This document shows, in pieces, positions 3,366 to 30,891 of a DNA stretch of 41,806 nucleotides. The notes beneath the pieces were generated by a model. That model was not told the origin of the DNA, made no database searches, and saw nothing but the letters and a program-made list of their open reading frames with translations. The stretch lies in contig JAFQUQ010000059.1 in the NCBI GenBank assembly GCA_017408395.1, positions 1 through 41,806 on the forward strand, given 5' to 3'. The DNA is from Oscillospiraceae bacterium (lineage in GTDB: Bacteria; Bacillota; Clostridia; Oscillospirales; Ruminococcaceae). Position 1 is the first letter of the stretch. The number at the start of each line of letters is the position of its first letter. The position numbers were made by a program, and so were the translations under genes.

Positions 3366-3409
3366 TCGGAGCTTACGTAAGATTAAATTTCCCCGATATG
3401 AGGTTCGAT

Positions 3410-4405: not shown

Positions 4406-4420
4406 ACCGAGGAGTATTTA

Positions 4421-6436: not shown

Positions 6437-6459
6437 TTCATTCTAAAGGAGAAATATAA

Positions 6460-7509
6460 ATGGCAATTGCTGACGAAGTCAGAAAACCCCAGCATTTCAA
6501 AGAAACTGCCAAAAAGAAGAAGAAAAGCTTCAGGGAAGCATTTATTCCAAGTAAGAATGACTCCTCAAAGGAGCTTTTCAGCAAGGTGTTTTCTTTGTTT
6601 TCGCTGCTGGTGCTTGTGGTCTGCATCGGTATTCTGGGCGTGTACTTCTACCACCAGTTTGAGGCTAAGCAGAACAATGAGGACATAAGGGTCATTTACA
6701 ATAATGCTGTTCAGGACAGCGTCGTTACGACACAGCCTGCTCCTCAGCAGCCTGCAAATCCTGAGGAAGAAACTCAGGAAATTGTAAGACAGCCACTTGT
6801 TGTTTCATCAGCTGCGGAGGAAATGCTTGCTATCAACCCCAATTATGCAGGCTATCTTTACATCCCTGACGTTATGAGCGAGGCTGTTGTAAAATATACC
6901 GACAACGATTATTACCTCAACCATAACATTTACGACCAGAAGCGTTCCTGCGGTACGGTCTTTGCCGATTTCAGAAATACCGTCAATGATTACAGCGACC
7001 GTATGAGCGATAATATCATCCTTTACGGCCACAACCAGAAGGACGGCACAATGTTCGGCAATATGGACTATTACAAATGGGATTACAAATACTGGCTCAA
7101 AAACCCCTTCATCTACTTTGATAATCTTTACGAAAGCGGTACATATGTAATCATTTCCTCTTTCGTTATAAACACCGAGCCTGAGCACGACAACGGCAAT
7201 GTGTTTGATTATAACAATTTCATCAATTTCAAATCCGAAGGCCCGTATACTTACGAGAACTTCATCAAGGAAATTACCGACAGAAGTCACTTCATTACAG
7301 GTATTGACGTAAACGAGGAAGACAAGTTCCTTACACTTTCGACTTGTACCTATGAGTGGGAGCCTGCACGTCACGTTATCGTTGCAAGAAGGCTTCGTCC
7401 CGGCGAAACCACTGATAGCATAGATACAACCAACTTCTCTGTAAACTCAAATCCAAAGTGGCCCGCTATCTACTATAAATATAACGGCGGCTCTTATGTA
7501 GAACAATAA
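6460..7509 (+). CDS. Class B sortase (fourth of four)
   Basis: 349 residues with a basic N-terminus (KKKKK near 18-22), one membrane segment at about 45-66, a Pro/Gln/Glu-rich linker (about 90-112) and a sortase domain (about 120-312). His191 (YGHNQKDGTMFG), Cys296 (LSTCTYEW) and Arg304 are present. The block after the Cys (TYEWEPARHV) differs from the SNEF form shared by the other three, so its specificity may differ. AAAGGAG lies eight bases before the start. The N-terminal half of the protein, including LVLVVCI in the membrane segment, resembles the first sortase of the operon, suggesting duplication. Confidence 0.92.
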   Translation: MAIADEVRKPQHFKETAKKKKKSFREAFIPSKNDSSKELFSKVFSLFSLLVLVVCIGILGVYFYHQFEAKQNNEDIRVIYNNAVQDSVVTTQPAPQQPANPEEETQEIVRQPLVVSSAAEEMLAINPNYAGYLYIPDVMSEAVVKYTDNDYYLNHNIYDQKRSCGTVFADFRNTVNDYSDRMSDNIILYGHNQKDGTMFGNMDYYKWDYKYWLKNPFIYFDNLYESGTYVIISSFVINTEPEHDNGNVFDYNNFINFKSEGPYTYENFIKEITDRSHFITGIDVNEEDKFLTLSTCTYEWEPARHVIVARRLRPGETTDSIDTTNFSVNSNPKWPAIYYKYNGGSYVEQ

Positions 7510-9052: not shown

Positions 9053-10353
9053 TGACGATGTATGATATTATTACAAAGAAAAAGCATAACGTCGAGCTTA
9101 CGACGGAAGAGATCAATTGGTTTGTTGCCGGATACGTTTCCGGCAGCATTCCCGATTATCAGGCTTCTGCGTGGCTTATGGCGGTATGCTTTTCTTCTTT
9201 ATCTGACAGGGAAACTACCGATCTTACAATGGCTATGGCAAGGTCTGGGGATATGTTTGAGCTTGGTCTGGACGGCTTCTGCGCAGACAAGCACAGTACA
9301 GGCGGCGTAGGCGACAAAACCACGCTGATAGTTGCGCCGATAGTGGCTTCCTGCAGTGTTTATGTGCCTAAAATGTCGGGACGTGGTCTTGGACATACGG
9401 GCGGTACTATCGACAAACTGGAGTCCATTCCGGGATTCAGCACCTCGCTTGATTACGACAGGTTTATTTCTGTGGTAAAAAAGGCAGGGTTTGCGGTTGC
9501 AGGTCAGACGGGTACTCTTGTGCCTGCGGATAAAAAGCTGTACGCTCTGAGAAATGCTACGGCTACGGTTGACAGCATTCCTCTCATCTGCTCATCTATT
9601 ATGAGCAAGAAGCTTGCTACGGGTGCTGACGGTATCGTTCTTGATGTAAAGGTCGGGGACGGTGCGTTTATGAAAAATATGGAGGACGCTGAAAAGCTTG
9701 CGGAGGCTATGGTGCGTGTTGCACAGCTTGCAGGCAGAAAATGCTCCGCTGTGCTGACGGATATGAATATGCCTCTCGGTCTGACGGTTGGTAATTCGCT
9801 GGAGGTTATCGAGGCTATCGAAACCTTAAAGGGCAACGGTCCTGCTGACCTTGTGGAGGTCGTAATTGCACTTTCGGCTGAAATGCTCCGTCTGGCAGGA
9901 AAAGGCAGCGAGCAGGAATGCGCTGAAATGGCACGTGACGCTCTGAATTCAGGCAGGGCTCTTGCTAAACTTGCGGAGATGATTGAGCTGCAGGGCGGTG
10001 ATCCTCAGGTTATAAATGATTACAGCTTGTTTAAACAAGCTGAATTTAAACAGGAAGTATACGCAGAACAGGACGGTATAATCAGCGGTATATCCTGCGA
10101 AAAGACAGGTCTTATCTCACTTTCTCTGGGGGCAGGCAGAAAAACCAAGGAGTCGGACATTGATTTTTCGGCAGGTATCAGATTTGCACGCACAGTCGGG
10201 GATGAAGTGCGTAAAGGCGATTTACTTGCCACCGTTTATACCTCATCTGAATGTGACATAAACGCTGCTGCAAAGGAGCTTGCAGGGGTGTTCTCCTATG
10301 GCACGGAAAAAATTTCTGAAAAAAAAGTAAAAAAAATCATAAAAGGGTATTGA
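9049..10353 (+). CDS. pdp: Pyrimidine-nucleoside phosphorylase
   Basis: A cytoplasmic enzyme of 434 residues that splits uridine or thymidine with phosphate to give a free base and a pentose-1-phosphate, for nucleoside salvage. It is a member of nucleoside phosphorylase family II (thymidine/anthranilate phosphoribosyltransferase fold). The phosphate-binding motif KHSTGGVGDKTT is at residues 81-92, followed by MSGRGLGHTGGTIDKLE. Length is normal. Start is at 9049; starts at 9052 and 9058 are also possible (MTMYDII resembles the family N-terminus). The ATGA overlap with the preceding gene implies translational coupling with a cell-wall gene, which is an odd partner for a salvage enzyme. Its stop codon lies inside the -35 box of the next promoter. 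Confidence 0.95.
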   Translation: MMTMYDIITKKKHNVELTTEEINWFVAGYVSGSIPDYQASAWLMAVCFSSLSDRETTDLTMAMARSGDMFELGLDGFCADKHSTGGVGDKTTLIVAPIVASCSVYVPKMSGRGLGHTGGTIDKLESIPGFSTSLDYDRFISVVKKAGFAVAGQTGTLVPADKKLYALRNATATVDSIPLICSSIMSKKLATGADGIVLDVKVGDGAFMKNMEDAEKLAEAMVRVAQLAGRKCSAVLTDMNMPLGLTVGNSLEVIEAIETLKGNGPADLVEVVIALSAEMLRLAGKGSEQECAEMARDALNSGRALAKLAEMIELQGGDPQVINDYSLFKQAEFKQEVYAEQDGIISGISCEKTGLISLSLGAGRKTKESDIDFSAGIRFARTVGDEVRKGDLLATVYTSSECDINAAAKELAGVFSYGTEKISEKKVKKIIKGY

Positions 10354-18751: not shown

Positions 18752-18767
18752 AATAATATATATCCGT

Positions 18768-19050
18768 CATTACACAAAGAAAACTTTATGTTTTCTTTGT
18801 GTAATGAGGTGTGGTTTGGTTTAAACGGATAGAATTTAAGCGCAATTCAGATTAACATATCAATAAAGATTGTTGAGAATTAATAATCTCTTTTTTCTTT
18901 ATTGTTCTGAATTGCGCTTTATTTTTGCTTTTTAGTTTTGTCTGGATTTGCTAAGGGCGCCGCCCTTAACCCGCAAGGTGACGCTGTCCCCTTGACCCCT
19001 GCAAGCCTTTGAAAAGGCTTGACCTAAACTTTAACGTCAAGCGATTTTGT
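18768..19050. repeat. Hairpin-array repeat, copy 1
   Basis: Five consecutive inverted repeats: H1 is a perfect 17-bp stem (CATTACACAAAGAAAAC, loop TTTAT, reverse complement; 18768-18806); H2 is GCGCAATTCAG/CTGAATTGCGC with inner CAATAAAG/CTTTATTG (18840-18917); H3 is AAGGGCG-centred (18952-18968); H4 is CAAGG...CCTTG (18973-18995); H5 is CAAGCCTTT/AAAGGCTTG (19002-19021). The tail GACCTAAACTTTAACGTC matches 107-124. The same order recurs at 28249-28505. H1 may also terminate rnr. Confidence 0.85.
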
Positions 19051-19088
19051 GCAACTTTTTCTCAATTGCAACTTTTTCGACAAGCTGA

Positions 19089-19120
19089 ACGGCTTCCGTA
19101 TTATAAAATGCGGAAGCCGT
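19089..19120 (-). terminator. Terminator of the toxin-antitoxin operon
   Basis: ACGGCTTCCG and CGGAAGCCGT pair with inner TATT/AATG around TATAA, two bases past the toxin stop codon. On the minus strand it is followed by TCAGCTTGTCG, the boundary sequence shared with the repeats. Confidence 0.75.
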
Positions 19121-19122
19121 TT

Positions 19123-19392
19123 TCAGCTGTAAATATCTTTTCTGTGACCGATTTCAAGGATAAGAATAATTATCTTATCCTCCTGAATATCGGCGATTAT
19201 GCGGTAGTCACCGATACGATACCGCCATTGACCGCTGCGGTTTGCCGTCAGTCCCTTTCCGTGAGCACGGGGGTCGGAGCAGTTCTGCAAATTCTTATCT
19301 ATCCACGCATAAATAAGCTTTCTGGTGCTTTTATCAAGCTTTGCAAGCTGTTTAACGGCTTTGGGAGTGTATTCTACTTTAAACTCAGTCAA
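19123..19392 (-). CDS. RelE/ParE-family toxin
   Basis: About 89 residues; predicted mRNA interferase or gyrase-type toxin of a type II module. The sequence FKVEYTPKAVKQLAKLDK, the central GQWRYRIGDYRII and the C-terminal GHRKDIY match the RelE/ParE family, and the Arg/Lys set points more to RelE-like RNA cleavage. No ATG start exists: TTG at 19392, overlapping the antitoxin stop, gives the family-typical N-terminus; TTG at 19398 or 19410 are alternatives. A weak start fits the need to keep toxin below antitoxin. The gene overlaps the antitoxin by a few bases, so the two are translationally coupled. Confidence 0.85.
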   Translation of the reverse strand: MTEFKVEYTPKAVKQLAKLDKSTRKLIYAWIDKNLQNCSDPRAHGKGLTANRSGQWRYRIGDYRIIADIQEDKIIILILEIGHRKDIYS

Positions 19393-19606
19393 GGTCAAGC
19401 AGCTTTGCAACCTCTTCGTGGGAGTAGGTTACGGGATTTTTCTTGTATTCCGCCATTGCTTCTTCGTATGCTTTAAGGTCAAATTCGTCCTCTATGCGTT
19501 CCATAACCGAGCGTCTTACAAGCTCTGACACCGACATACCGTTTATTGAAGCATAGGCCTTGATAAGCTCGGAGTCCTTATCGTTAAGTCTTAATGATAT
19601 GGTCAT
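19385..19606 (-). CDS. RelB-type ribbon-helix-helix antitoxin
   Basis: 73 residues. The N-terminal TISLRLNDKDSELIKAYAS and NGMSVSELVRRSV form a ribbon-helix-helix DNA-binding unit (about 1-45); the acidic C-terminal part (about 46-73) would wrap the toxin. GAGGAGGGG lies just upstream of the start, much stronger than anything before the toxin. A palindromic operator at 19622-19640 overlaps its promoter, which supports autoregulation. Confidence 0.88.
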   Translation of the reverse strand: MTISLRLNDKDSELIKAYASINGMSVSELVRRSVMERIEDEFDLKAYEEAMAEYKKNPVTYSHEEVAKLLDLD

Positions 19607-19621
19607 AATACCCCTCCTCTC

Positions 19622-19640
19622 TGTAATACATTGTATTACA
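19622..19640 (-). promoter_or_regulatory. Palindromic operator of the toxin-antitoxin operon
   Basis: TGTAATACATTGTATTACA is a perfect 9-bp inverted repeat around one base. It contains the -10 box (TACAAT on the minus strand, 19630-19635). Confidence 0.75.
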
Positions 19641-19658
19641 TTTTATCCGTTTTGTCAA
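19630..19658 (-). promoter_or_regulatory. Promoter of the toxin-antitoxin operon
   Basis: On the minus strand: TTGACA (19658-19653), 17-base spacer, TACAAT (19635-19630). Antitoxin binding to the palindrome would block the -10 box. Confidence 0.75.
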
Positions 19659-19704
19659 TAGCTTTTGTTATTTTTTCCGACAGAACAGCTTATATACGCA
19701 AAAT

Positions 19705-19736
19705 CGCCGTATCGGGAGAGCGTTCCTGATACGGCG
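19705..19736 (-). terminator. Terminator of htpG
   Basis: CGCCGTATC and GATACGGCG pair around a mid-stem AGG/CCC and a short loop, eight bases after the htpG stop, followed on the minus strand by ATTTTG. Confidence 0.7.
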
Positions 19737-19743
19737 GTGAATT

Positions 19744-21654
19744 TTATTTTTTGTCAACCATAAGGCTGCATACGAGATTTGAAAATTCAAGCGGATTTTC
19801 AATAGGCATACCCTCAATGAGAAGTGCCTGTGTGTAAAGCATACTGCTGTAATCGGCAAGCTTTGCCTTGTCGGTGTCGTAAAGTCCCTTGAGCACCTCA
19901 AAAATAGGATGGTCAGGGTTGATTTCAAGTACCTTTTCAGCCTTTACGCCCTGATTGTCAGGCATCTGGGCAAAGGTCTTCTCCATTTCAAGAGAAATCT
20001 GTCCTTCGCTTGTAAGGCATACAGGATGTGACTTAAGACGCTCGGAAAGCTTTGCGGATTTGATCTTGCCGTTGAGATTTTTTGCGATTTCTTCAAGCAT
20101 ATCCTTGCTTTCTTCGGAAAGCTTCCTGAAGGCTTCCTTTTCTTCCGCTGTTTCAAGGTCGAGGTCAGCGTCGGAAATGGACTTGAACTGCTTGTCGGCA
20201 TATTCCACCATAATCTTTGCGGCAAATTCATCTACGCTTTCTGTAAAGTAAAGAATTTCGTAGCCCTTATCCTTTACAACTTCTGTCTGAGGGAGGGTAT
20301 CTGCCTTGTCAACGGTTTCGGCTGTTGCGTAGTAAATGTACTTCTGGTCTTCCTTCATACGGGAAACATACTCGTCAAGGGTAACGTACTTCTTTTCGTT
20401 TGAGGAAACAAAAATGAGCAGGTCCTTAAGCAGATCCTTGTTTGCACCGTAGCCGTTGTAAACGCCGAATTTGATCTGCATACCGAATATCTTCCAGAAT
20501 TCTTCGTACTTTTCACGCTCGTTGGCAAGCATTTTCTTAAGCTCGTTCTTGATGGTCTTTTCGATGGATTTTGCTATGATTTTAAGCTGACGGTCGTGCT
20601 GGAGCATTTCACGGGAAATGTTGAGGGAGAGATCCTGTGAGTCAACGAGACCCTTTACAAAGCAGAAATGGTCAGGCACAAGGTCGGAGCACTTATCCAT
20701 AATAAGAACGCCGCTGGAATAAAGCTGGAGTCCCTTTTCATAGCTCTTGGTGTAGAAATCCATAGGAGCTGTTGAAGGGATGTAGATGAGTCCGTCGTAG
20801 GTTGCGGTACCCTCGGTTTTAACGTGGATATATTTAAGAGGGTCGTGGTAGTCGTAGAATTTTTCCTTGTAGAAATTGTTGTATTCTTCGGCTGTGATCT
20901 CGGATTTGCTCTTTCTCCAGAGAGGAGTCATACTGTTTAAAGTTTCCTCAACGATGTGTGTGTGGTACTCAGGAGGAACATCCTCTGTGCCTGTACCTTC
21001 AACAAGGTGGTCGTGAGCCATATCGAATCTGATAGGGTAGTGGATATAATCGGAGTACTTCTTTACAAGCATCTTGATTTTCCACTGCATAAGGAATTCT
21101 TCGTAGGATTCATCGTCGGTATCGTCCTTGAGGTAAAGACGGATCTCTGAGCCTGTGCCGTCCTTTTCACATTCTTCGATTGTGTAGCCGTCTACGCCCT
21201 GGGATTTCCAGAGGTAAGCCTGGTCGGAGCCGTAAGCCTTTGTACGCACTTCAACTTCCTTTGCAACCATAAATGCAGAGTAGAAGCCTACACCGAACTG
21301 ACCGATGATGTCAACATCCTCGGCGGTGTTGTTTTCGTCATTTTTAAAGCTGAAGGAGCCGCTGTTTGCGATTGTACCGAGGTTGTTTTCAAGCTCCTCC
21401 TTTGTCATACCGATACCGTTGTCACGGATTATGATTGCTCTGTTGTCAGTGTCCGTTTCAATTTTAATAAAGAAATCGGAACGGTTCATTCCTACCTTAT
21501 CATCGGTGAGGGACTTGAAATAAAGCTTGTCCATTGCGTCGCTGGCGTTGGAAATAAGCTCACGGAGGAAAATTTCCTTGTGAGTATAGATTGAGTTGAT
21601 CATCATATCAAGCAGACGCTTTGACTCGGCTTTAAACTGTTTTGTTTCTGCCAT
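19744..21654 (-). CDS. htpG: Molecular chaperone HtpG (Hsp90)
   Basis: 636 residues; an ATP-dependent cytosolic chaperone. N-terminal GHKL ATPase domain (about 1-225) with ELISNASDAMDKL, DNGIGMTKEEL, GQFGVGFYSAFMV and GTGSEIRLYL; then middle domain (about 235-500, with SREMLQHDRQLKII) and C-terminal dimerisation domain. Length is typical. The start at 21654 (MAETKQF) has AGGAAG 11 bases upstream; the GTG at 21666 would abut that site. A CIRCE element and sigma-A-type promoter lie upstream, so it is under HrcA heat-shock control here. Confidence 0.96.
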   Translation of the reverse strand: MAETKQFKAESKRLLDMMINSIYTHKEIFLRELISNASDAMDKLYFKSLTDDKVGMNRSDFFIKIETDTDNRAIIIRDNGIGMTKEELENNLGTIANSGSFSFKNDENNTAEDVDIIGQFGVGFYSAFMVAKEVEVRTKAYGSDQAYLWKSQGVDGYTIEECEKDGTGSEIRLYLKDDTDDESYEEFLMQWKIKMLVKKYSDYIHYPIRFDMAHDHLVEGTGTEDVPPEYHTHIVEETLNSMTPLWRKSKSEITAEEYNNFYKEKFYDYHDPLKYIHVKTEGTATYDGLIYIPSTAPMDFYTKSYEKGLQLYSSGVLIMDKCSDLVPDHFCFVKGLVDSQDLSLNISREMLQHDRQLKIIAKSIEKTIKNELKKMLANEREKYEEFWKIFGMQIKFGVYNGYGANKDLLKDLLIFVSSNEKKYVTLDEYVSRMKEDQKYIYYATAETVDKADTLPQTEVVKDKGYEILYFTESVDEFAAKIMVEYADKQFKSISDADLDLETAEEKEAFRKLSEESKDMLEEIAKNLNGKIKSAKLSERLKSHPVCLTSEGQISLEMEKTFAQMPDNQGVKAEKVLEINPDHPIFEVLKGLYDTDKAKLADYSSMLYTQALLIEGMPIENPLEFSNLVCSLMVDKK

Positions 21655-21707
21655 TTTGAAAGACACTTCCTTTTATTTAATAGTAATAACCCCGATTTTA
21701 AAAATAT

Positions 21708-21734
21708 TTAGCACTCTCACATTAAGAGTGCTAA
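21708..21734 (-). promoter_or_regulatory. CIRCE element (HrcA operator) of htpG
   Basis: TTAGCACTC, nine bases, GAGTGCTAA: an exact match to the CIRCE consensus, placed at the expected transcription start. Confidence 0.95.
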
Positions 21735-21738
21735 ATAT

Positions 21739-21767
21739 AGTATAAATCACTTTCCCCAATATTTCAA
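21739..21767 (-). promoter_or_regulatory. Promoter of htpG
   Basis: On the minus strand: TTGAAA, 17-base spacer, TATACT, immediately upstream of the CIRCE element. Confidence 0.75.
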
Positions 21768-21869
21768 GAGGGGAAAATTATTATTTACAATTTGTACACA
21801 TTTGCGGCGGCTTGTTTGTAAAAACCGTCGTTTAATAGTAACAAAATGGTTAATTCGTGGTTAAAGCCC

Positions 21870-21897
21870 TTGACTTTACGGGCGTTTGGGGTATAAT
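21870..21897 (+). promoter_or_regulatory. Promoter of trkAH
   Basis: TTGACT at 21870-21875, 16-base spacer, TATAAT at 21892-21897; about 30 bases before the trkA start. Confidence 0.75.
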
Positions 21898-21932
21898 ATT
21901 TTACATAATGCAGATAAAGGATATATAATATT

Positions 21933-23288
21933 ATGAATATAATCATTGTAGGCTGCGGCAAGGTCGGTCAGACTCTTGCACAGGAGCTTAACGAAAAGGA
22001 TAACAACATAACCGTCATTGACCTTGACCCCGTTATCGTCAATGAGGTAACAAGCCGTTTTGACGTTATGGGCGTTGCAGGCAACGGTGCGACTCACGCA
22101 AAACAGCAGGAGGCAGGCATTAAAAATGCGGACCTGCTTATTGCGGTGACAGGCTCGGATGAGCTTAATCTGCTGTGCTGTCTGATTGCGAAAAAGGCAG
22201 GTAACTGCCAGACTATCGCCCGTGTAAGAAATCCCGAATACAGCAGCGAAGCCCCTTATTTAAAGGAGGAGCTTGGTCTTGCTATGGTTATCAACCCAGA
22301 AGCGGCTGCGGCTGCGGAAATCGACCGTGTACTGCGTTTCCCGTCGGCTATAAAAATCGACACTTTCGCAAAGGGCAGGGTGGAGCTGCTTAAATTCAGA
22401 CTGCCTGAGGACAGCCCTCTGGTAAACTGTGCGGTAAAGGAAATCGTTACAAAATTCCATTGCGACGTTCTCGTCTGCACGGTTGAGCGTGACGATGAAG
22501 CTTACATAGCAAACGGTGACTTTGTGTTTGAGGAAAAGGATATTATCTCCATAATCGCCTCTCCGAGAAATGCAAACGAGTTCTTCCGTAAAATCAAATA
22601 TAAGATTAATTCCGTAAAAAATGCGATGATAGTCGGCGGCGGTGAAATTACACACTACCTCTGCGACAGACTTCAGCGGGCAGGTATTGACGTTACAATT
22701 ATCGAAAAGGACAGAAAACGCTGTGAGGAGCTTTGCACGCTCTGGCCAGAAGCGGTAGTTATAAACGGTGACGCTGTTGACCAGGAGATACTGCTTGAAG
22801 AGGGTCTGGAAAAAGCAGGTGCGTTTGTTGCGCTGACAAACCTCGACGAGGAAAATATCCTGCTCTCCCTTTTTGCAAAGACCGTGAACAAGGGCAAGCT
22901 TGTTACAAAAATAAACCGTATCGACTTTGACGATGTTATCAAGCATCTTGACCTTGATACCACGATTTACCCTAAAAATATCACCTCCGATATGATCGTT
23001 AGCCACGTAAGGGCAATGAAAAACACTATCGGAAGCAATGTTGAAACCCTTTACAGCATCATAAAGGGCAAGGTCGAGGCGGCAGAGTTTATTGTAAAAG
23101 AGGACTCGGCTGTTACTGCAAAGCCGCTGATGGAGCTTTCGCTTAAAAAGGACGTGCTGGTTGCGGCTATACTCAGGGACAGGAAGGTCCTTATTCCGAG
23201 AGGTCAGGACGTTATCCGTCAGGGCGACGCTGTTATCATAGTTTCAAAGCTTATGGAATTCCACGATATTACCGATATACTTAAATAA
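21933..23288 (+). CDS. trkA: Trk potassium uptake regulatory protein TrkA
   Basis: 451 residues; the cytoplasmic NAD(H)/ATP-binding gating subunit of the Trk potassium transporter. It has two TrkA-N/TrkA-C repeats: Rossmann motif VGCGKVGQTLA at 6-16 with acidic IDLDP, TrkA-C at about 140-220, a second Rossmann at about 230 (VGGGEITHYL) and a second TrkA-C at the end (RGQDVIRQGDAVIIVS). This is the full-length E. coli-like TrkA rather than the half-length KtrA form. trkH follows after 11 bases. Confidence 0.95.
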   Translation: MNIIIVGCGKVGQTLAQELNEKDNNITVIDLDPVIVNEVTSRFDVMGVAGNGATHAKQQEAGIKNADLLIAVTGSDELNLLCCLIAKKAGNCQTIARVRNPEYSSEAPYLKEELGLAMVINPEAAAAAEIDRVLRFPSAIKIDTFAKGRVELLKFRLPEDSPLVNCAVKEIVTKFHCDVLVCTVERDDEAYIANGDFVFEEKDIISIIASPRNANEFFRKIKYKINSVKNAMIVGGGEITHYLCDRLQRAGIDVTIIEKDRKRCEELCTLWPEAVVINGDAVDQEILLEEGLEKAGAFVALTNLDEENILLSLFAKTVNKGKLVTKINRIDFDDVIKHLDLDTTIYPKNITSDMIVSHVRAMKNTIGSNVETLYSIIKGKVEAAEFIVKEDSAVTAKPLMELSLKKDVLVAAILRDRKVLIPRGQDVIRQGDAVIIVSKLMEFHDITDILK

Positions 23289-23299
23289 CGAGGCATAAG

Positions 23300-24733
23300 A
23301 TGAACTACCGAATGATTAAATATATCCTTGGATGGATAATGATTTTTGCGGCGATTTTTATGGCTGTGCCGCTGATTACGGCTGTTGTTTACGGCGAAAA
23401 GGCAGGATGGTCGTTCCTTATTTCCGCAGCTGTAAGTGCGGCGCTGGGCGGTCTGCTTATAATTCGCAGGCCTGAAAACAAGGTGCTGTACGCAAGAGAG
23501 GGCTTTGTTATCGTATCCTTAAGCTGGATACTTCTCAGCTTGTGCGGTTCGCTGCCGTTTGTGATTTCGGGTGCGATACCCAACTACATAGACGCTTTGT
23601 TTGAAACGGTATCGGGCTTTACAACAACGGGTGCAAGCATTCTTACAGAGGTTGAGTCCCTGCCTAAGTGTATTCTTATGTGGCGAAGCTTTTCCCATTG
23701 GGTAGGCGGTATGGGCGTGCTGGTTTTCATTATGGCGTTCGTTCAGCTCAGCGGCGGACAGAATATGCACATTATGAAAGCGGAGAGCCCCGGGCCTTCC
23801 GTCAGCAAGCTTGTTCCGAGAGTAAAAACCACGGCGCTTATTCTTTATTCCATTTATTTTGTGCTTACGCTGATTGAATTTGTTCTGCTGCTTTTCGGCG
23901 GTTTAAGCGTGTTTGAAGCCGCAAACACGGCTTTTGCTACGGCAGGTACGGGCGGCTTCGGCATAAGAAACGACAGTATGGGCAGTTTTTCGCCTTATGT
24001 GCAGATAGTTGTAACGGTGTTTATGCTGCTGTTTTCGATAAATTTCAGCTCATATTACCTGATATTGCTCCGCAATTTCAAGGACGCTTTCAACTGCGAG
24101 GTAAGGTGGTTCCTTGTTATTGTTGCGGTTGTCATCACGCTTATCACCTGCAATATTGCAGATATGTTCAACACGGTGGGCGAGGCGCTCCGTCACTCTG
24201 CGTTTACGGTTGCTTCTTTGATTTCAACCACGGGCTTTTCTACGGTTGACTTTGACAAATGGCCTGAGCTGTCGAGAAATCTGCTGGTTATGGTAATGTT
24301 TGTGGGTGCCTGTGCAGGAAGTACAGGCGGCGGTATAAAGGTTTCGAGAATAATTATCCTGTTCAAGAGTATGGGCAAGGAGCTTGAAAATCTTATTCAC
24401 CCCAAGCAGGTCAAAAAGGTCACTATCGACAACCGTCTGGTTGAGCACGAGGTCGTAAGGTCTGTAAATGTCTATATGGTTGCCTATGTTATGCTGTATG
24501 TTTTCTCGGTAATAGCGCTTTCATTTGACAATCACGGTTTTACCACAAACTTTACGGCTGTTGCGGCTACGATAAACAATATCGGTCCGGGTCTTGAAAT
24601 GGTAGGTCCTACCTGCAATTTCTCTTTCTTCTCACCATTTTCAAAGATAGTGCTTATATTTGATATGCTGGCAGGCAGACTGGAGCTTTTCCCGATGCTG
24701 CTTCTGTTTACTCCTGCTACCTGGAAAAAATAA
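23300..24733 (+). CDS. trkH: Trk potassium uptake membrane protein TrkH
   Basis: 477 residues; the polytopic channel subunit partnered with TrkA. Four pore-loop motifs of the superfamily are visible: TTTGAS, TAGTGGFG, STTGFSTVD and NNIGPGLE; the membrane segments are spread over the whole length. CGAGG lies seven bases before the start. It is the second gene of the trkAH operon and ends in a strong terminator. Confidence 0.95.
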   Translation: MNYRMIKYILGWIMIFAAIFMAVPLITAVVYGEKAGWSFLISAAVSAALGGLLIIRRPENKVLYAREGFVIVSLSWILLSLCGSLPFVISGAIPNYIDALFETVSGFTTTGASILTEVESLPKCILMWRSFSHWVGGMGVLVFIMAFVQLSGGQNMHIMKAESPGPSVSKLVPRVKTTALILYSIYFVLTLIEFVLLLFGGLSVFEAANTAFATAGTGGFGIRNDSMGSFSPYVQIVVTVFMLLFSINFSSYYLILLRNFKDAFNCEVRWFLVIVAVVITLITCNIADMFNTVGEALRHSAFTVASLISTTGFSTVDFDKWPELSRNLLVMVMFVGACAGSTGGGIKVSRIIILFKSMGKELENLIHPKQVKKVTIDNRLVEHEVVRSVNVYMVAYVMLYVFSVIALSFDNHGFTTNFTAVAATINNIGPGLEMVGPTCNFSFFSPFSKIVLIFDMLAGRLELFPMLLLFTPATWKK

Positions 24734-24736
24734 ATA

Positions 24737-24778
24737 ACGGATGATGTTCGACTCGTTGTGAACATCATCCGTTTTTTT
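24737..24778 (+). terminator. Terminator of trkAH
   Basis: ACGGATGATGTTC and GAACATCATCCGT pair perfectly around a ten-base loop, followed by seven T residues. Its minus-strand reading also ends the small gene at 24781. Confidence 0.9.
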
Positions 24779-24780
24779 AC

Positions 24781-25005
24781 TTAAAGTCCGATCTTGCCTA
24801 AAATTCCGCCAAGCTTATCCTTAACGTCATCTACGGAAATCTTTGCCTTGATGCCGTCTACGATCTGGTTGACCATATCATCGGGGAGGTCTACACCTGT
24901 TACGGATTCTACTGCCTTTACAGGGTCCTTTTTGAAGTCTTCGGCAAAGTTTTCGTCTGCCTTGATCTTTTCAACGATTTCTTCGATTTTTGCTTTGATA
25001 TCCAT
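24781..25005 (-). CDS. Small helical protein of unknown function, Nif11/leader-like pattern
   Basis: 74 residues, Lys/Asp/Glu-rich, predicted all helical. The middle part, FKKDPVKAVESVTGVDLPDD, recalls the pattern of Nif11/nitrile-hydratase-type leader peptides (Phe...Pro...Gly-hydrophobic-Leu-Pro). It ends KLGGILGKIGL, a Gly-Gly followed by seven residues. GAGGT precedes the ATG, with a good promoter upstream (25039-25067). No modifying enzyme is nearby; the MacB-type transporter is divergent from it. It may equally be a small housekeeping helical protein. The gene is well supported; the function is not. Confidence 0.75.
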   Translation of the reverse strand: MDIKAKIEEIVEKIKADENFAEDFKKDPVKAVESVTGVDLPDDMVNQIVDGIKAKISVDDVKDKLGGILGKIGL

Positions 25006-25038
25006 TGTAAATACCTCGTTTCTGTAAAATATATATCC

Positions 25039-25067
25039 ATTATATCACAAGTTAAACAATATTTCAA
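25039..25067 (-). promoter_or_regulatory. Promoter of the small helical protein
   Basis: On the minus strand: TTGAAA, 17-base spacer, TATAAT. Confidence 0.7.
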
Positions 25068-25117
25068 GGAAGAAACTTACAGCAAGTGTGACAATTAGGT
25101 GAAATTTACAAATCTGA

Positions 25118-25146
25118 TTGACATTATTTTGTCATTGTGCTATACT
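25118..25146 (+). promoter_or_regulatory. Promoter of the MacB-type ABC transporter
   Basis: TTGACA at 25118-25123, 17-base spacer, TATACT at 25141-25146. Confidence 0.75.
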
Positions 25147-25172
25147 TTAAGGGTGTTATTTTCGATTGAAAC

Positions 25173-25197
25173 GGAGCATAATGCTCCTGTATTTTTT
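25173..25197 (+). terminator. Possible attenuator in the leader of the ABC transporter gene
   Basis: GGAGC and GCTCC close a short hairpin around ATAAT, followed by TGTATTTTTTT, between the promoter and the start codon at 25221. The stem is only five pairs, so strength is doubtful. Confidence 0.4.
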
Positions 25198-25220
25198 TGT
25201 GAAAGGAAGTCTTTATTTAA

Positions 25221-28169
25221 ATGCTTCAGGTCAAAAATATTGTCAAGAAGTACGGTATGGGCGACAATGTTGTTACTGCTCTCAACGGAGTGGATATTAC
25301 CTTCCGTGAAAATGAGTTTGTTTCCATCCTCGGACACTCAGGCTGCGGTAAGACAACCCTCCTCAACATTATCGGCGGTCTTGACCACTACACTTCAGGC
25401 GACCTCATTATCAACGGCGTTTCAACCAAGAACTACAAGGACAGGGACTGGGACGCATACAGAAACCACTCTATCGGTTTCATTTTCCAGAGCTACAACC
25501 TTATCCCTCATCAGACGGTGCTTGCAAATGTTGAGCTTGCACTGACAATTTCGGGCGTATCAAAGTCTGAACGCAGAAAAAGAGCTGTTGAGGCGCTTAA
25601 AAAGGTTGGACTTGAAAATCAGATACATAAAAAGCCTAATCAGATGTCGGGCGGTCAGATGCAGCGTGTTGCTATTGCTCGTGCGCTTATAAACAACCCT
25701 GATATTCTTCTGGCCGACGAACCTACGGGTGCTCTTGACAGCGAAACAAGCATCCAGGTTATGGAGCTGCTTAAGGAAATTGCCAAGGATAAGCTTGTTA
25801 TTATGGTTACTCATAACCCTGAGCTTGCCGAGGAATATTCCACACGTATCGTTAAAATTAAGGACGGTAAGCTTATTAGCGACTCCGACCCTTATATGCC
25901 TGAAACTGAGGACGCTCCTGCGGAAGCAAAGAAGACGCGTGTTTCAATGTCGTTTATGACGGCTGTGTCGCTTTCTTTAAACAACCTGCTTACCAAGAAG
26001 GGACGTACCATTTTAACTGCTTTTGCAGGCTCTATCGGTATTATCGGTATCGCACTCATCCTCTCCCTTTCAACGGGTATCAACGACTACATAAACGGTA
26101 TCCAGGAGGAAACGCTTTCGTCCTATCCTATCACCATCACCAAGGAAACCGCCGATACGGCGAGCCTTATGAACTCTATGATGGAAAGCCGAAAGGAAAC
26201 GATGGAACAGCGTGAGGGTCAGGAAAATATGGTTTATGCCAATACTCAGGTATACGAAATTTTCAACTCTCTCAGCTCATCCGCAAAGCAGACCAACAAT
26301 ATGACCGAAATCAAGGAGTTCTTTGACAACGATGCGGTCATTAAGGAAAATGCAAGCTCCGTTGCTTACTCCTACAACATTCAGATGCCTATATTTACAA
26401 AGGATACCGAGGGCAAGATCATTCAGTCTGATTTCTCTAAAATAATGCAGACTTCTGTCGGTCTTGACTCTTCCTCAACTTCTGCGGCAATGGGTGCTGC
26501 AATGCAGATGTCCTCTGTAAACGTATGGGAAGAGATGCTGGCAGGCGATGACGGCTCCGCTGTAAATGAAATGCTTAAAGAGCAGTACGACGTTATTTAC
26601 GGCAGCTGGCCTGAAAATTACGACGAGGTCGTAGTTATCCTTTCATCCGGTCACGAAATTCCCGACGTTGTTGCTTATACTCTCGGTCTTAAGGATCAGT
26701 CAATGCTTCCTGATGTTACACAGAAGGCTATGACAGGCAAGATCATTGACGATTACGGCAAGACAGAGTGGTCCTTTGATGAAATTATGGCTAAGGATTA
26801 CAAGCTTATCCTGCCCTGTGAATACTATCAGAAAAACGAAGGCGGCAAGGGCTATGTTAATCTTACGGAAACAGAAACAGGTCTGGAGTTTATTTTCACA
26901 GACGAGGAAATCGGTGTTCCCCTTAAGGTAACAGGCTTTATCCGTCCTAACGAAGAAGCTTCCTCCGTTATGCTTACAGGCTATATCGGCTACACAAGCA
27001 AGCTTACGGAATATGTTATCGAAAAGACAAACAACAGCGCTATCGTCAAGGAACAGCTTGAAAACGAGACTATTGATGTTCTGACAGGTCTTGAATTCAA
27101 GACGGATGATTACGTTGAGCCGTCCGACGCTGAAAAGGCAGCAGAAATCAAGGATTACCTTGCTGACCTTACAACATCCGAAAAATCCGATGTTTACAGA
27201 TTTATTATGTCTAAGCCTGACGACGCTGAGGCTGACGCTTACGTTGAACAGTATCTTTCCGCAATAACAAGGGAAGAGCTTGAAGCACAGCTTATTGAAG
27301 CCTATGCTCAGCAGATGGGCGTTGAAGCGTCAAACGTTGAGTCCTACATCAAGCAGATGGACGACGAAACTCTCTTCGGTTACGCAGGTGACGCTATGAA
27401 GGAGCAGTATGCCGCACAGTATGCCGCACAGGTTGAACAGCAGCTTACTGTAATGACAGCGGAACAGCTTGCTGCAGCTTTCGATATGACTCAGTTCACA
27501 GACGCTCAGTATGCAAAGATGTTTGATGAGTACACCCCTGTTGAGCTTTCCGAATCAAGCTGTGATGAGGTGCTGGACACTCTCGGTCACACCGATTTCG
27601 ACAAGCCTTCCGTTGTAAGAGTTTACGCAAAGACCTTTGCCGAAAAGGATATGATCTCCGAAAAGATCGCAGAATACAACGATGCGGCTGATGAGGACAG
27701 CGTTATCCACTATACCGACTATGTTGCTCTGCTTATGTCCTCCATTACGGACATTATCAGCGGTATTTCCTATCTGCTTATTGCATTCGTTGCAATTTCT
27801 CTTGTCGTATCTTCAATTATGATCGGTATTATCACTTACATCTCCGTTCTTGAAAGAACAAGAGAAATCGGTATTCTCCGTGCTATCGGTGCTTCAAAGG
27901 GCGATATTTCCACAGTTTTCAATGCTGAAACACTTCTCGTAGGTCTTACATCAGGTCTGATAGGTATAGGCGTATCCGCACTTGCTATCATTCCGATAAA
28001 CGCTATCGTTTACAGTCTGACCGGAATCGAGGGACTCAAGGCGATACTTCCTGTTCCTGCGGCTGTAATTCTCGTTATAATCAGTATGGTGCTTACACTC
28101 ATTGCAGGTGTTATCCCATCAAGAGTTGCCGCTAAGAAGGACCCTGTTGAGGCTCTCAGAACTGAATAA
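25221..28169 (+). CDS. MacB-type ABC transporter, ATPase fused to FtsX-like permease
   Basis: 982 residues. ATPase domain (1-230): Walker A GHSGCGKTT at 38-46, signature MSGGQMQR, Walker B ILLADEPTGALD, switch His in VTHNPE. Then permease: TM1 (about 257-285), a large extracellular domain of roughly 550 residues, and three C-terminal membrane segments with the FtsX motif ERTREIGILRAIGAS and the closing DPVEALRTE. Proteins of this type couple ATP hydrolysis to mechanical work or export rather than import. The extracellular part is long for the family and holds a Tyr/Ala/Gln-rich helical stretch (AAQYAAQVEQQ). It converges on the operon at 28507-35871, which encodes a MacA-like adaptor, so the two may work together. 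Confidence 0.92.
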   Translation: MLQVKNIVKKYGMGDNVVTALNGVDITFRENEFVSILGHSGCGKTTLLNIIGGLDHYTSGDLIINGVSTKNYKDRDWDAYRNHSIGFIFQSYNLIPHQTVLANVELALTISGVSKSERRKRAVEALKKVGLENQIHKKPNQMSGGQMQRVAIARALINNPDILLADEPTGALDSETSIQVMELLKEIAKDKLVIMVTHNPELAEEYSTRIVKIKDGKLISDSDPYMPETEDAPAEAKKTRVSMSFMTAVSLSLNNLLTKKGRTILTAFAGSIGIIGIALILSLSTGINDYINGIQEETLSSYPITITKETADTASLMNSMMESRKETMEQREGQENMVYANTQVYEIFNSLSSSAKQTNNMTEIKEFFDNDAVIKENASSVAYSYNIQMPIFTKDTEGKIIQSDFSKIMQTSVGLDSSSTSAAMGAAMQMSSVNVWEEMLAGDDGSAVNEMLKEQYDVIYGSWPENYDEVVVILSSGHEIPDVVAYTLGLKDQSMLPDVTQKAMTGKIIDDYGKTEWSFDEIMAKDYKLILPCEYYQKNEGGKGYVNLTETETGLEFIFTDEEIGVPLKVTGFIRPNEEASSVMLTGYIGYTSKLTEYVIEKTNNSAIVKEQLENETIDVLTGLEFKTDDYVEPSDAEKAAEIKDYLADLTTSEKSDVYRFIMSKPDDAEADAYVEQYLSAITREELEAQLIEAYAQQMGVEASNVESYIKQMDDETLFGYAGDAMKEQYAAQYAAQVEQQLTVMTAEQLAAAFDMTQFTDAQYAKMFDEYTPVELSESSCDEVLDTLGHTDFDKPSVVRVYAKTFAEKDMISEKIAEYNDAADEDSVIHYTDYVALLMSSITDIISGISYLLIAFVAISLVVSSIMIGIITYISVLERTREIGILRAIGASKGDISTVFNAETLLVGLTSGLIGIGVSALAIIPINAIVYSLTGIEGLKAILPVPAAVILVIISMVLTLIAGVIPSRVAAKKDPVEALRTE

Positions 28170-28176
28170 TAATCGG

Positions 28177-28217
28177 GCATTGCAGGATATAAATAAAGTA
28201 TCCTGCAATGCTTTTTT
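28177..28217 (+). terminator. Terminator of the MacB-type transporter gene
   Basis: GCATTGCAGGATA and TATCCTGCAATGC pair perfectly around a nine-base loop, followed by TTTTTT. Confidence 0.9.
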
Positions 28218-28248
28218 ATACTATAAATTTCAAATAGTATTTGAGCGT

Positions 28249-28505
28249 CAGTACATAAAGCAAACACAAGGTTTACTTTATGTACTGAGGCAAAATTTTG
28301 TTTAATACAAAAAATATAGCCGCAATTCAGATTAATAGGCTTTGAAGGATTACTAAAATCCGATGATTTTCTCATCTTTGCCTTATTGTTCTGAATTGCG
28401 GCTTAGTTTTGCTTGTAATTGCTAAGGGCGCTGCCCTTAACCCGCAAGGGACGCCGTCCCTTTGAACCCTGCAAGCCTTTTGAAAAAGGCTTGACCTAAA
28501 ACTTT
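28249..28505. repeat. Hairpin-array repeat, copy 2
   Basis: Same hairpin order as 18768-19050. H1 is CAGTACATAAAGCAAAC/GTTTACTTTATGTACTG (one mismatch); H2 is CCGCAATTCAG/CTGAATTGCGG with inner AATAGGC/GCCTTATT; H3 is AAGGGC/GCCCTT; H4 is AAGGGAC/GTCCCTT; H5 is CAAGCCTTTT/AAAAGGCTTG. Several stem positions differ from copy 1 in both arms, keeping pairing. The tail GACCTAAAACTTTA runs right up to the stop codon of the gene at 28507. Confidence 0.85.
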
Positions 28506-28506
28506 A

Positions 28507-30891
28507 CTATCTGTTTTCGCTGATGTAGATACTTGCTCTGTTCTGGATAATATCAGCTGTTTCATCAAGGGATTTCTGTCCTGAAAAATATGCGGCAGCT
28601 TCTTCGGTGATGATCTTCATAAGGTCGGTATCATACTGATAGGTTGTTGATGCGGATGTGATAAGATTCATAAGCTTTTCGTTGTCTGCGTCTGTGTTTA
28701 CGCCGATGTCAACGGAGGTTTCACCTATCCAGTAGGTGTTCTCGTATTCTACCTTGTTGCCGTTTTCATCTGTGTAGAAAGGCTTTTCCTTTGCCTGTTC
28801 CTTAAGAGCGTCGTATGCGGAAAGCTTGACAGGGAAGTTGCTTGCATTGTTCTGGTAATCGTCGGAGAGGAAGTATTTTAAGAATTCCCATGCACCGTCA
28901 GGGTTCTTTGCCTTGGCTGTGATTGCGTAAGAGCTGTTTGCGTTGATAACGCTGCCGTTTCCGCTGCTTACAGGGTAGCCGATAAAGGTTACTTCTTCGC
29001 CGAATTTACCCTTTTCAATTTCGATCATACTGTTGAATCTGTAAATATATTCGGCGCTTAAAAGCTGGGTGCCGTTTCTGTATGAAGCCTGTAAATCGTT
29101 CCAGTAGCTTTCGTCTTTGTAAAGCTCGTCGTAGTTGATTTCCTCGGGGTATTCGTTTGCCGCTTCAAGGAGTGCCTTGAAATCGGCTGTGTTGAAGTAA
29201 CATTCGCCTGTTTCCTTGTTTACATAAGAGCCCATACCGTAGGAGAGGAAGTTTGCAAGGAAGTTTTCCTTTGTCCATTCCTGGAAGATACCCTCAGGCT
29301 TGCCCTTTACAAATTCAAGATATTCTGCCATTGTCCAGGACTGTTTGCCGTCTAATAAGGATGTCTTGCCCACAAGGGTATTGATGGTGAAGTCAGGAAC
29401 AAGCTGATAAAGCTTGCCGTCGATGGAGTATGCGTCGAAAATGTTTGTGAGGTAGTCTGCACGGTTGATGGTTTCATCGCTGTCGATAAACTGATTAAGG
29501 TCAGCAAGGATACCCTTTGAAATGTAGCTGTCAACAGGCATTGAGTACTGGTCGATGATAAGAATATCGGGGATGTCGCCTGAGATAAGGTCGTTGGTAA
29601 GCTTTGTGTAGCCTGCTGTATAGTCGCCTGTGCCGTCGTCATAATCGGAGTAGGATCTGACTTCGATCTGGTATTTGTCGCTGGTCTGGTTGAATTCAAC
29701 GATCTGCTGCTTTGTCTTATAGTTTAAATAGTGTGTGTAAACGGAGATAAGCTGCTTGTCGGGAATTTCGGACGGGTCTACCTTTGTGAGGATGTTGAGG
29801 ATCATATCGCTGCCGCTCCAGGAGTAGCCGCCGCCTTCTTCCTCGTATTTGTAGGTCGTGCAGAGAACACGTCCGTCAGAGAGAATGGTTGCGTTGTTCA
29901 TAGTGGTCGTATCAAGACCGCATTTGAGCCAGTCGAGAACGATGGTGGTTTCACCTGTTTCAAGGTCAAGTCCGAGAAGTGCGTTATCGGTTGAAACGTA
30001 GAGGTCATATTCGGAGCTGCCGTTGAAGAAGGAGTAGTAGTTTGCATTTATTCTGTATTCTTCGGTGAAGCTCTTTGAAGCAAAGTCGATTACCTTTGCT
30101 GTATTTTTGTTCTTGTACTCGTCATCAATGATTTCGTAGGAGTTCATCATTGCAACTATTCTGCCGTCGCCTGTTTTATAGATACCGTTCATATATGAGC
30201 CTGAGGTATCTGTTGATTCGGCACCGCCAAGCTTGAAGGAGAACTTGCCTGTGCTGTCGCAGACATAGATTTCGTTATCGGTAACAAGATAAATGTTGCC
30301 GCTGTTGTCCATTTCCATATTGCCGACATAGAAATACTCTGCGTTGCTCTGCTCCTTGACGGAGGAAATATCGGTAGTGCTCAGCTCCTTGCCGTCCTTG
30401 TCAAGCTTCTTGATAAAATAGCTTTCTGTGCTTTCGTTTGTCTGCATATTATAGGTGTAATTCTGCATAAGCAGGGCAACGGTACCGTCATCGGCAACGC
30501 ACACCTTCTGGATGTTTGAATAGGTAGAGCCTGTTTCGGAATTGTCGCTGTTTGAAGAAATTACAACTCTGTCAAGGCTGTTGCCGTCCGAGTCGAGAAT
30601 TGCCATTACGGTATCAGAGGAGTATGAGTAGGTTTCTTCAACCATTCCGCCGTCTGTATTTCCGGTGGGTTCGGGGGTGGTGTTTACATTTCCGAAAATG
30701 TAGATACGGTCACCGCCGTAGGTCATTGTGTTTATGTATTCAAAGGTTTCGGTAAAAGGTATCTCGGTGGTTCTGTACACGTTTTCCTTTGAAGCCATAG
30801 GTACTTCCTGCTTGCCGCAGGACGCCAGGGAAAGCATTGCTGCAAGTGACACTGCTGCCGCTGTACAGCGTTTCAGGATGTTCTTTTTCAT
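28507..30891 (-). CDS. Lipoprotein: propeller-like N-terminal domain plus ABC solute-binding domain
   Basis: 794 residues, about twice the size of a normal family 1 solute-binding protein. Lipobox LASC gives lipidated Cys25. Residues of about 50-385 contain repeated strand-rich units with Asp/Gly turns (for example DDGTVALLM, DNSGNIYLV, GDGRIVAMM, SDGRVLCTT), resembling a beta-propeller. Residues of about 390-794 match an extracellular solute-binding protein: KQQIVEFNQTS, DIPDILIID, GKLYQLVPDF, GAWEFLKYFL. It is the last gene of the operon; its ATG overlaps the preceding stop (ATGA). It probably delivers a substrate to the two permeases at the head of the operon; the propeller may bind cell-wall or glycan material. 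Confidence 0.85.
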   Translation of the reverse strand: MKKNILKRCTAAAVSLAAMLSLASCGKQEVPMASKENVYRTTEIPFTETFEYINTMTYGGDRIYIFGNVNTTPEPTGNTDGGMVEETYSYSSDTVMAILDSDGNSLDRVVISSNSDNSETGSTYSNIQKVCVADDGTVALLMQNYTYNMQTNESTESYFIKKLDKDGKELSTTDISSVKEQSNAEYFYVGNMEMDNSGNIYLVTDNEIYVCDSTGKFSFKLGGAESTDTSGSYMNGIYKTGDGRIVAMMNSYEIIDDEYKNKNTAKVIDFASKSFTEEYRINANYYSFFNGSSEYDLYVSTDNALLGLDLETGETTIVLDWLKCGLDTTTMNNATILSDGRVLCTTYKYEEEGGGYSWSGSDMILNILTKVDPSEIPDKQLISVYTHYLNYKTKQQIVEFNQTSDKYQIEVRSYSDYDDGTGDYTAGYTKLTNDLISGDIPDILIIDQYSMPVDSYISKGILADLNQFIDSDETINRADYLTNIFDAYSIDGKLYQLVPDFTINTLVGKTSLLDGKQSWTMAEYLEFVKGKPEGIFQEWTKENFLANFLSYGMGSYVNKETGECYFNTADFKALLEAANEYPEEINYDELYKDESYWNDLQASYRNGTQLLSAEYIYRFNSMIEIEKGKFGEEVTFIGYPVSSGNGSVINANSSYAITAKAKNPDGAWEFLKYFLSDDYQNNASNFPVKLSAYDALKEQAKEKPFYTDENGNKVEYENTYWIGETSVDIGVNTDADNEKLMNLITSASTTYQYDTDLMKIITEEAAAYFSGQKSLDETADIIQNRASIYISENR

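Follow-up and report, generated by a model that had tools for sequence, protein, structure and literature searches.

A multi-hairpin repeat family downstream of stop codons in one genus of Ruminococcaceae, with strand-specific constraint on its long hairpins

Results

Two copies of a five-hairpin unit and their neighbours

The window analyzed here is the whole 41,806-nt stretch of contig JAFQUQ010000059.1 (assembly GCA_017408395.1, an Oscillospiraceae bacterium placed by GTDB in the Ruminococcaceae), and its source genome, which we call G000, comprises 1.85 Mb in 61 contigs and is 71% complete. As a first-pass annotation had observed, the window holds two copies of a unit in which five hairpins, H1-H5, follow one another in identical order (18767-19035 and 28248-28506). 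Copy 1, on the minus strand, contains H1 (18767-18807), an 18-bp perfect stem with a 5-nt loop that forms the centre-side hairpin of the unit and has a homologous hairpin in 38 of 39 units; H2 (18838-18919), whose arms AAGCGCAATTCAGA/TCTGAATTGCGCTT serve as genus markers and enclose a variable inner stem; the small, G+C-rich H3 (18951-18969) and the small, G+C-rich and imperfect H4 (18974-18994), with coordinates read from the sequence; and H5 (19002-19021), which continues to 19035 as the outer end AAAGTTTAGGTC. It faces a 95-aa RelE-like open reading frame (ORF; 19123-19410, minus strand), named from reading of the protein only. A RelB-like ORF, likewise recognized by reading only, overlaps the RelE-like one, the two together spanning 19123-19606 (minus strand), and an HSP90 gene lies upstream.

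Copy 2, also on the minus strand, contains H1 (28248-28288, an 18-bp stem with one U·G pair on the minus strand), H2 (28318-28403, arms AGCCGCAATTCAGA/TCTGAATTGCGGCT), H3 (28423-28439) and H4 (28446-28462), both again with coordinates read from the sequence, and H5 (28472-28493) with its outer end (28472-28506 together). This end lies directly 3' of a minus-strand gene for a 794-aa protein with a solute-binding domain (28507-30891): the gene's TAG adjoins the element and is followed by TAAAGTTTTAGGTC without a gap. In both copies H2 is placed on the minus strand provisionally. The paired stem changes reported between the copies hold in the sequence for H1, H2, the inner H2 stem and H5, except that one H1 change in copy 2 has no Watson-Crick partner; it makes C·A on the plus strand, which is U·G on the minus strand. 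Relative to shuffled sequences, the minus strand folds with z scores of -8.9 (copy 1) and -9.3 (copy 2).

A third, partial copy had been proposed at positions 1-118. Of the unit, that stretch has H5 and the tail and nothing else, and it turned out to belong to a different element, the short palindromic repeat R1, of which it is one end. R1 measures roughly 260 bp, and its ends resemble TGTCGAAAAAGTTGCA/TGCAACTTTTTCGACA. It occurs at 11 contig ends, the window's own (1-170) included, and at one internal place (L075, contig C44, about 9750-9990), and is a probable cause of breaks in the assembly; at one more contig end, C4, only the tail is shared. Over 73 nt, the tails of R1 and copy 1 are 94.5-98.6% identical. 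On reading, R1 adjoins terminator-like hairpins. The window also carries an A+T-rich repeat near both contig ends (1173-1351 and 41634-41806; 94% identity over 119 nt), bounded by inverted sequences like GTCGAAAAAACTTTTTCGACAA, and repeated DNA among four consecutive sortase-domain genes (2409-7509).

A family of arrays in the source genome

BLAST within the same genome returned 67 matches to copy 1, with short and self-hairpin matches counted in. A profile search of fetched stretches of G000 recovered 39 units longer than 140 profile positions, a number well above chance and a lower bound, as the fetched stretches make up part of G000 only. These units form 16 inverted pairs and 7 singles, so that 32 of the 39 are paired. 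The pairs measure 0.54-0.85 kb, and their H5 ends point outward. Copies 1 and 2 are two of the seven singles, which is why the pairing is invisible within the window.

A unit is roughly 250-450 nt long and has about 5-7 hairpins. The two H2 hairpins of a typical pair are separated by additional long hairpins (A to D), whose loops are similar and whose stems vary; small hairpins of the H3, H4 and H5 types appear, on reading, to have been exchanged among copies as modules. Inverted GACATTAAAGTTTAGGTC-like sequences stand at both ends of pairs, with neither a target-site duplication nor a parent element established for them, and 3 of the 15 array centres that were compared have TTATACAATGTGTA in common.

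The outer end of the unit faces a stop codon

The first-pass annotation had placed both copies at gene ends, after rnr and after a MacB-type gene. The location at gene ends is confirmed, and the genes that matter are instead the minus-strand genes facing the H5 end. When we counted stop codons of facing ORFs of at least 85 aa, 30 of the 39 units had one on the facing strand between -60 and +12 nt of the H5 (outer) end, compared with 239 of 4,000 random positions in the fetched stretches and 1 of 39 inner unit ends. A wider search range gave 31 of 39, at distances of -94 to +7. Copy 1 falls outside the group of 30 because 94 nt separate it from its facing stop, that of the ORF at 19123-19410; this gap holds a hairpin (19088-19121) and one end of an R1 repeat. 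By our reading, both outer ends meet a facing stop in nine of the 16 pairs, and every one of the seven singles has a facing stop.

We made the same comparison in congeners at H2 sites with 450 nt on either side, where the orientation of H2 was set by base composition; this agreed with orientation by an H5-like motif 17 to 2 in G005 and 19 to 0 in G002. A facing stop preceded H2 by 60-330 nt at 36 of 39 sites in G005 and 10 of 11 in G002, compared with 12 and 3 on the other strand. The placement was weak in G004 (2 of 5, versus 1 on the other strand).

Wobble pairs assign the long hairpins to one strand

A constraint at the RNA level tolerates G·U pairs on the transcribed strand but not A·C pairs, whereas a DNA mechanism treats the two strands alike. 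The balance of G·U and A·C can therefore tell RNA from DNA constraint and, at the same time, give the strand. We called hairpins in G000 with an equal scoring penalty on G·T and A·C. Read in unit orientation, 54 outer hairpins contained 29 A·C and 3 G·T pairs (one of the 54 rows is a misassigned H3-region hairpin, which contributes one A·C and two other mismatches), and seven H1 hairpins contained 3 and 0. Since A·C in unit orientation is G·U on the strand of the facing gene, the excess points to RNA of that gene.

The pairing analysis centred on the long hairpin that adjoins H2, present in 38 of the 39 units; the one unit without it (C31_8726_L) was left out. In facing-gene orientation its 14 basal pairs give 532 cells, which we compared with 500 shuffles of the 3' arms. 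Standard pairs fill 99.6% of cells (shuffles: mean 68.6%, maximum 75.6%), a percentage that is flattered because the hairpins were found by complementarity. Both sides have changed in 160 cells (shuffle mean 46, maximum 75), and there are 29 distinct 5' arms. Stem changes without compensation, which the annotation had named as evidence against a functional RNA, are few: only 2 of the 532 cells are non-standard, in hairpins picked by complementarity. Two other measures lay within the range of the shuffles: 13 of the 14 pairs show a double change (shuffle mean 10.1, maximum 13), and further pair types number 36 (shuffle maximum 37).

The contrast between G·U and A·C is free of the bias that comes from finding hairpins by complementarity. 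On the facing-gene strand the hairpin adjoining H2 holds 30 G·U and no A·C pairs, with 2 other mismatches, compared with about 39 A·C in the shuffles. Wobble cells are not independent of one another, and counted by reading as combinations of position and pair they number only 8 versus 0.

Two congeners gave the same direction when rescored with a strand-symmetric penalty, after a loop-pattern check (of the G005 sites followed by 140 nt or more, only four were without the loop motif). G005 showed 45 G·U versus 3 A·C in 42 hairpins from 49 sites (25 versus 3 in the 13 basal pairs), many of its wobbles sharing, on reading, one recurring place near the loop; G002 showed 10 versus 0 in 11 hairpins from 25 sites (basal pairs, 2 versus 0). 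A stricter finder, run in facing-gene orientation, detected the hairpin at 26 of 49 G005 sites and 8 of 24 G002 sites, with 15 G·U versus 1 A·C and 3 versus 0, respectively. A second stricter finder, run in unit orientation, gave 25 A·C versus 1 G·T in G005 and 5 versus 1 in G002.

Folding energy is better on the facing strand in 51 of the 54 outer hairpins. On that strand the loops of the long hairpins read mostly as C-GNRA-G or C-GNA-G, loops that make stable turns in RNA. An RNA-level constraint on the long hairpins is thus well supported, and the earlier suggestion that covariation reflects a structure that is kept is backed by their strand-specific tolerance of G·U in three species.

H2 and the inner hairpins give other signals

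The remaining hairpins do not all lean the same way. In G005, H2 folds better on the other strand, opposite to the one favored by the outer hairpins, in 41 of 50 cases; G002 leans similarly (21 of 33, not significant), and no strand difference appears in G004 (3 of 5) or in G000 (8 of the 17 that were caught). Compensatory changes on one strand exceed the shuffled control for the hairpin adjoining H2, and they do not for H2. RNAalifold applied to H2 alone recovered only its arms in G005, G002 and G000, and a covariance model built from alignment A2 likewise captured the H2 arms only (9 pairs), which on our own reading is because MAFFT misaligned the second hairpin; that model was left out of searching. 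The outer arms of H2 are nearly invariant, and such small variation suggests recognition of the sequence, perhaps as DNA. H2 may be under another constraint than the long hairpins.

The G000 wobbles that run in the opposite direction all fall, on reading, in the innermost hairpin B (3 G·T versus 1 A·C in unit orientation). The seven H1-type hairpins, both window copies among them, are without a GNRA or GNA loop, and their folding energy divides 3 to 3 between the strands. Folding energy of whole half-arrays shows no strand difference (18 versus 21).

Spread within one genus, and turnover at homologous genes

Of 396 genomes of the family, four matched the exact H2-arm pattern (GCGCAATTCA S N40-70 S TGAATTGCGC), each of them in the window's own genus: G000 (16 matches), G002 (32), G004 (5) and G005 (70). 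The pattern was absent from the two other congeners, G001 and G003, and the reversed pattern, used as a control, had no match in the 396 genomes. A pattern with shorter arms had 38 matches in G000, and 146 other sampled genomes of the order had none. From a collection of named genomes the long pattern retrieved 96 stretches, 80 of them readable as loci, most from 'Oscillospiraceae bacterium SUG65' and two metagenome-assembled genomes (MAGs) labeled 'uncultured Ruminococcus', with one from a Ruminococcus MAG from goat rectum. One array used as a query found no match in phage and plasmid collections, and the H2-arm pattern was absent from viral contigs. Among the genomes searched, the array family is confined to one genus. 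Within it, loci read from G002 and G005 follow the G000 plan of stop, H5, H4/H3, H2, long hairpin and centre, in a largely different sequence.

Matches to the H2 pattern in unrelated bacteria came from Subtercola, a Microbacteriaceae genome, Tahibacter, Anaerolineae and Burkholderiales. Five places in two Subtercola genomes and one in Tahibacter carry the GCGCAATTCA/TGAATTGCGC arms at a total length of exactly 69 nt (L177, L204, L234 and L235 in Subtercola boreus; L219 in Tahibacter), and several of them resemble convergent gene ends when their context is judged by eye. As matches selected by the pattern itself, they may reflect chance or convergent use.

At single genes the arrays come and go. 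The facing gene of copy 2 has homologues in all five congeners searched, and none of them has an array after the homologous stop in the stretch inspected (301 nt in G001, 500-750 nt in the others), which indicates that a given gene can do without the module. In G002, G004 and G005 a terminator-like hairpin with a T-run follows soon after that stop. Gene order, as we read it, differs beyond the homologous stops, so no empty site is established for copy 2. For four of 31 facing genes, an array of the same plan and diverged sequence follows the stop of the homologue in G005 or G002, a count that is only suggestive of common sites; the search took homologues of at least 50% identity and array-bearing loci of these two genomes only, and two further homologues at or above that identity lacked an array directly after the stop. 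Absence at some genes and shared sites at others together imply that the family turns over.

A simple detector of intrinsic terminators (a G+C hairpin followed by a T-run) found none within 480 nt 3' of the facing stop at 30 array ends. Its yield at other gene ends, searched within 150 nt, was just 9 of 88; the detector may therefore be insensitive, and the result at the array ends does not discriminate. Comparison with Rfam, which the first-pass annotation had proposed, matched no known RNA family at the gathering score: the whole window gave 0 matches, and one array together with copy 1, searched at an E-value threshold, gave sub-threshold matches only.

Discussion

The position of the unit, the strand of its long hairpins and its structure together indicate that it probably belongs to the 3' end of the facing gene's mRNA. 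We lean, with modest confidence, towards a transcribed 3'-UTR RNA module of the REP/BIME kind that ends or protects that mRNA. A structured RNA with a role at the 3' end was among the readings offered at the outset, and it fits, with the correction that the strand in the window is the minus strand of the facing genes rather than that of rnr or the MacB-type gene. The transcript of the facing gene would pass through H5, H4, H3 and H2 before reaching one or two long hairpins, and the RNA would fold as a row of roughly 5-7 hairpins. Such a row, acting like a REP/BIME element, could fix where the transcript ends or is trimmed and could shield the upstream mRNA from 3' exonucleases. Where two modules lie tail to tail between convergent genes, each gene may have its own barrier, holding the two transcripts apart. 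Within a single genus, the family has both spread and turned over. If the modules do replace terminators, they would represent an unusual mode of ending convergent transcripts.

We regard it as unlikely, while deserving some weight, that the arrays are palindromic mobile repeats acting at the DNA level (a MITE or REP) with no RNA function, their units surviving after stops as places where insertion is harmless and their perfect arms arising from template switching at replication forks or from the needs of transposition. The high copy number, the inverted pairs, the arrays with related centres and the patchy presence at homologous genes would all suit such a repeat, as would the nearly invariant arms of H2 and its preference for the other strand in G005. 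However, a DNA-level repeat does not predict that the wobbles of long hairpins should be one-stranded in three species (30:0, 45:3 and 10:0), and harmless sites should include the inner side of units and either strand, whereas it is the H5 end that faces a stop (30 of 39 versus 1 of 39).

A strict bidirectional terminator, in which the hairpin row itself halts RNA polymerase for both convergent genes, strikes us as rather improbable. It would explain a location between convergent 3' ends, with stops faced at both ends of 9 of 16 pairs by reading, and an ordinary-looking terminator stands at the homologous gene in three congeners where G000 has an array. Yet a single hairpin would suffice for termination, making a row unneeded; the G+C hairpin with a T-run came after 0 of 30 facing stops by the simple detector (9 of 88 elsewhere); and the other neighbour of copy 2 keeps a terminator-like hairpin of its own (28177-28211).

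There is also a small chance that the unit is a SINE-like passenger, a genus-specific, modular 3'-UTR RNA reverse-transcribed into sites just after stops, whose folded RNA both enables its copying and replaces the end of the host transcript; if so, convergent genes would end up with paired, tail-to-tail RNA ends. Finally, five ordered hairpins over 260 nt resemble a non-coding RNA, and both TTATACAATGTGTA in 3 of 15 centres and the lean of H2 to the unit strand in G005 would fit a promoter in the array centre or before H1, but a free-standing small RNA is very improbable, as the strand signal of the outer hairpins runs inward from the gene and would require a start at the stop codon, and no Rfam family reached its gathering score in the window, with one array and copy 1 giving matches below threshold only.

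The transcribed 3'-UTR module that we favor has its closest known counterparts in the REP/BIME elements. REPs are described as palindromes of 20-40 bp tagged with GTAG/CGTC, and REP/BIME elements as intergenic sequences present in many copies, often as inverted pairs, that lie mostly 3' of genes, where the neighbouring genes converge or run in one direction; they are considered to be transcribed and to work as RNA (PMC3733652). The G000 units share the many intergenic palindromic copies, the frequent inverted pairs and the position downstream of coding genes (30 of 39 units versus 239 of 4,000 random positions). They differ in being modular and roughly ten times longer (about 250-450 nt, with pairs of 0.54-0.85 kb), in being limited to one genus among the genomes searched and in having no established unpaired GTAG/CGTC tag; on reading, their long hairpins are flanked by TGTC or CGTC in unit orientation, with the TC paired within the stem. 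A Y1 transposase (PF01797) was considered as a partner: none was found in G000, at 71% completeness, and presence in congeners does not track the arrays, with matches in G001, G003, G004 and G005 (weak in G003 and G005) and none in G002. The hairpin-dependent mobile element that the first-pass annotation had also suggested keeps some probability. Because the units are longer and modular, with the tag not established and a matching transposase not found here, we call them a variant of the REP/BIME kind rather than members of it.

ERIC, NEMIS and RUP, known from other bacteria, are stem-loop repeat families inserted at the 3' ends of genes. The arrays resemble them in being non-coding, mobile-looking, hairpin-forming and able to join the 3' end of an mRNA, and differ in being longer and modular and in their strand-specific RNA constraint in three species. 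The terminator-like hairpins of the congeners occupy the same place 3' of a homologous stop, but each is one G+C hairpin with a T-run, whereas an array is a row of hairpins in which that type was not found. Our search of the open literature retrieved no description of this array family, which is no proof that it is undescribed.

Whether REP/BIME elements are selfish DNA or functional RNA has long been debated, and the arrays bring to that debate the same architecture in several species with freely drifting stems. Together with natural presence and absence at the same gene between species, they make this old question testable within one genus.
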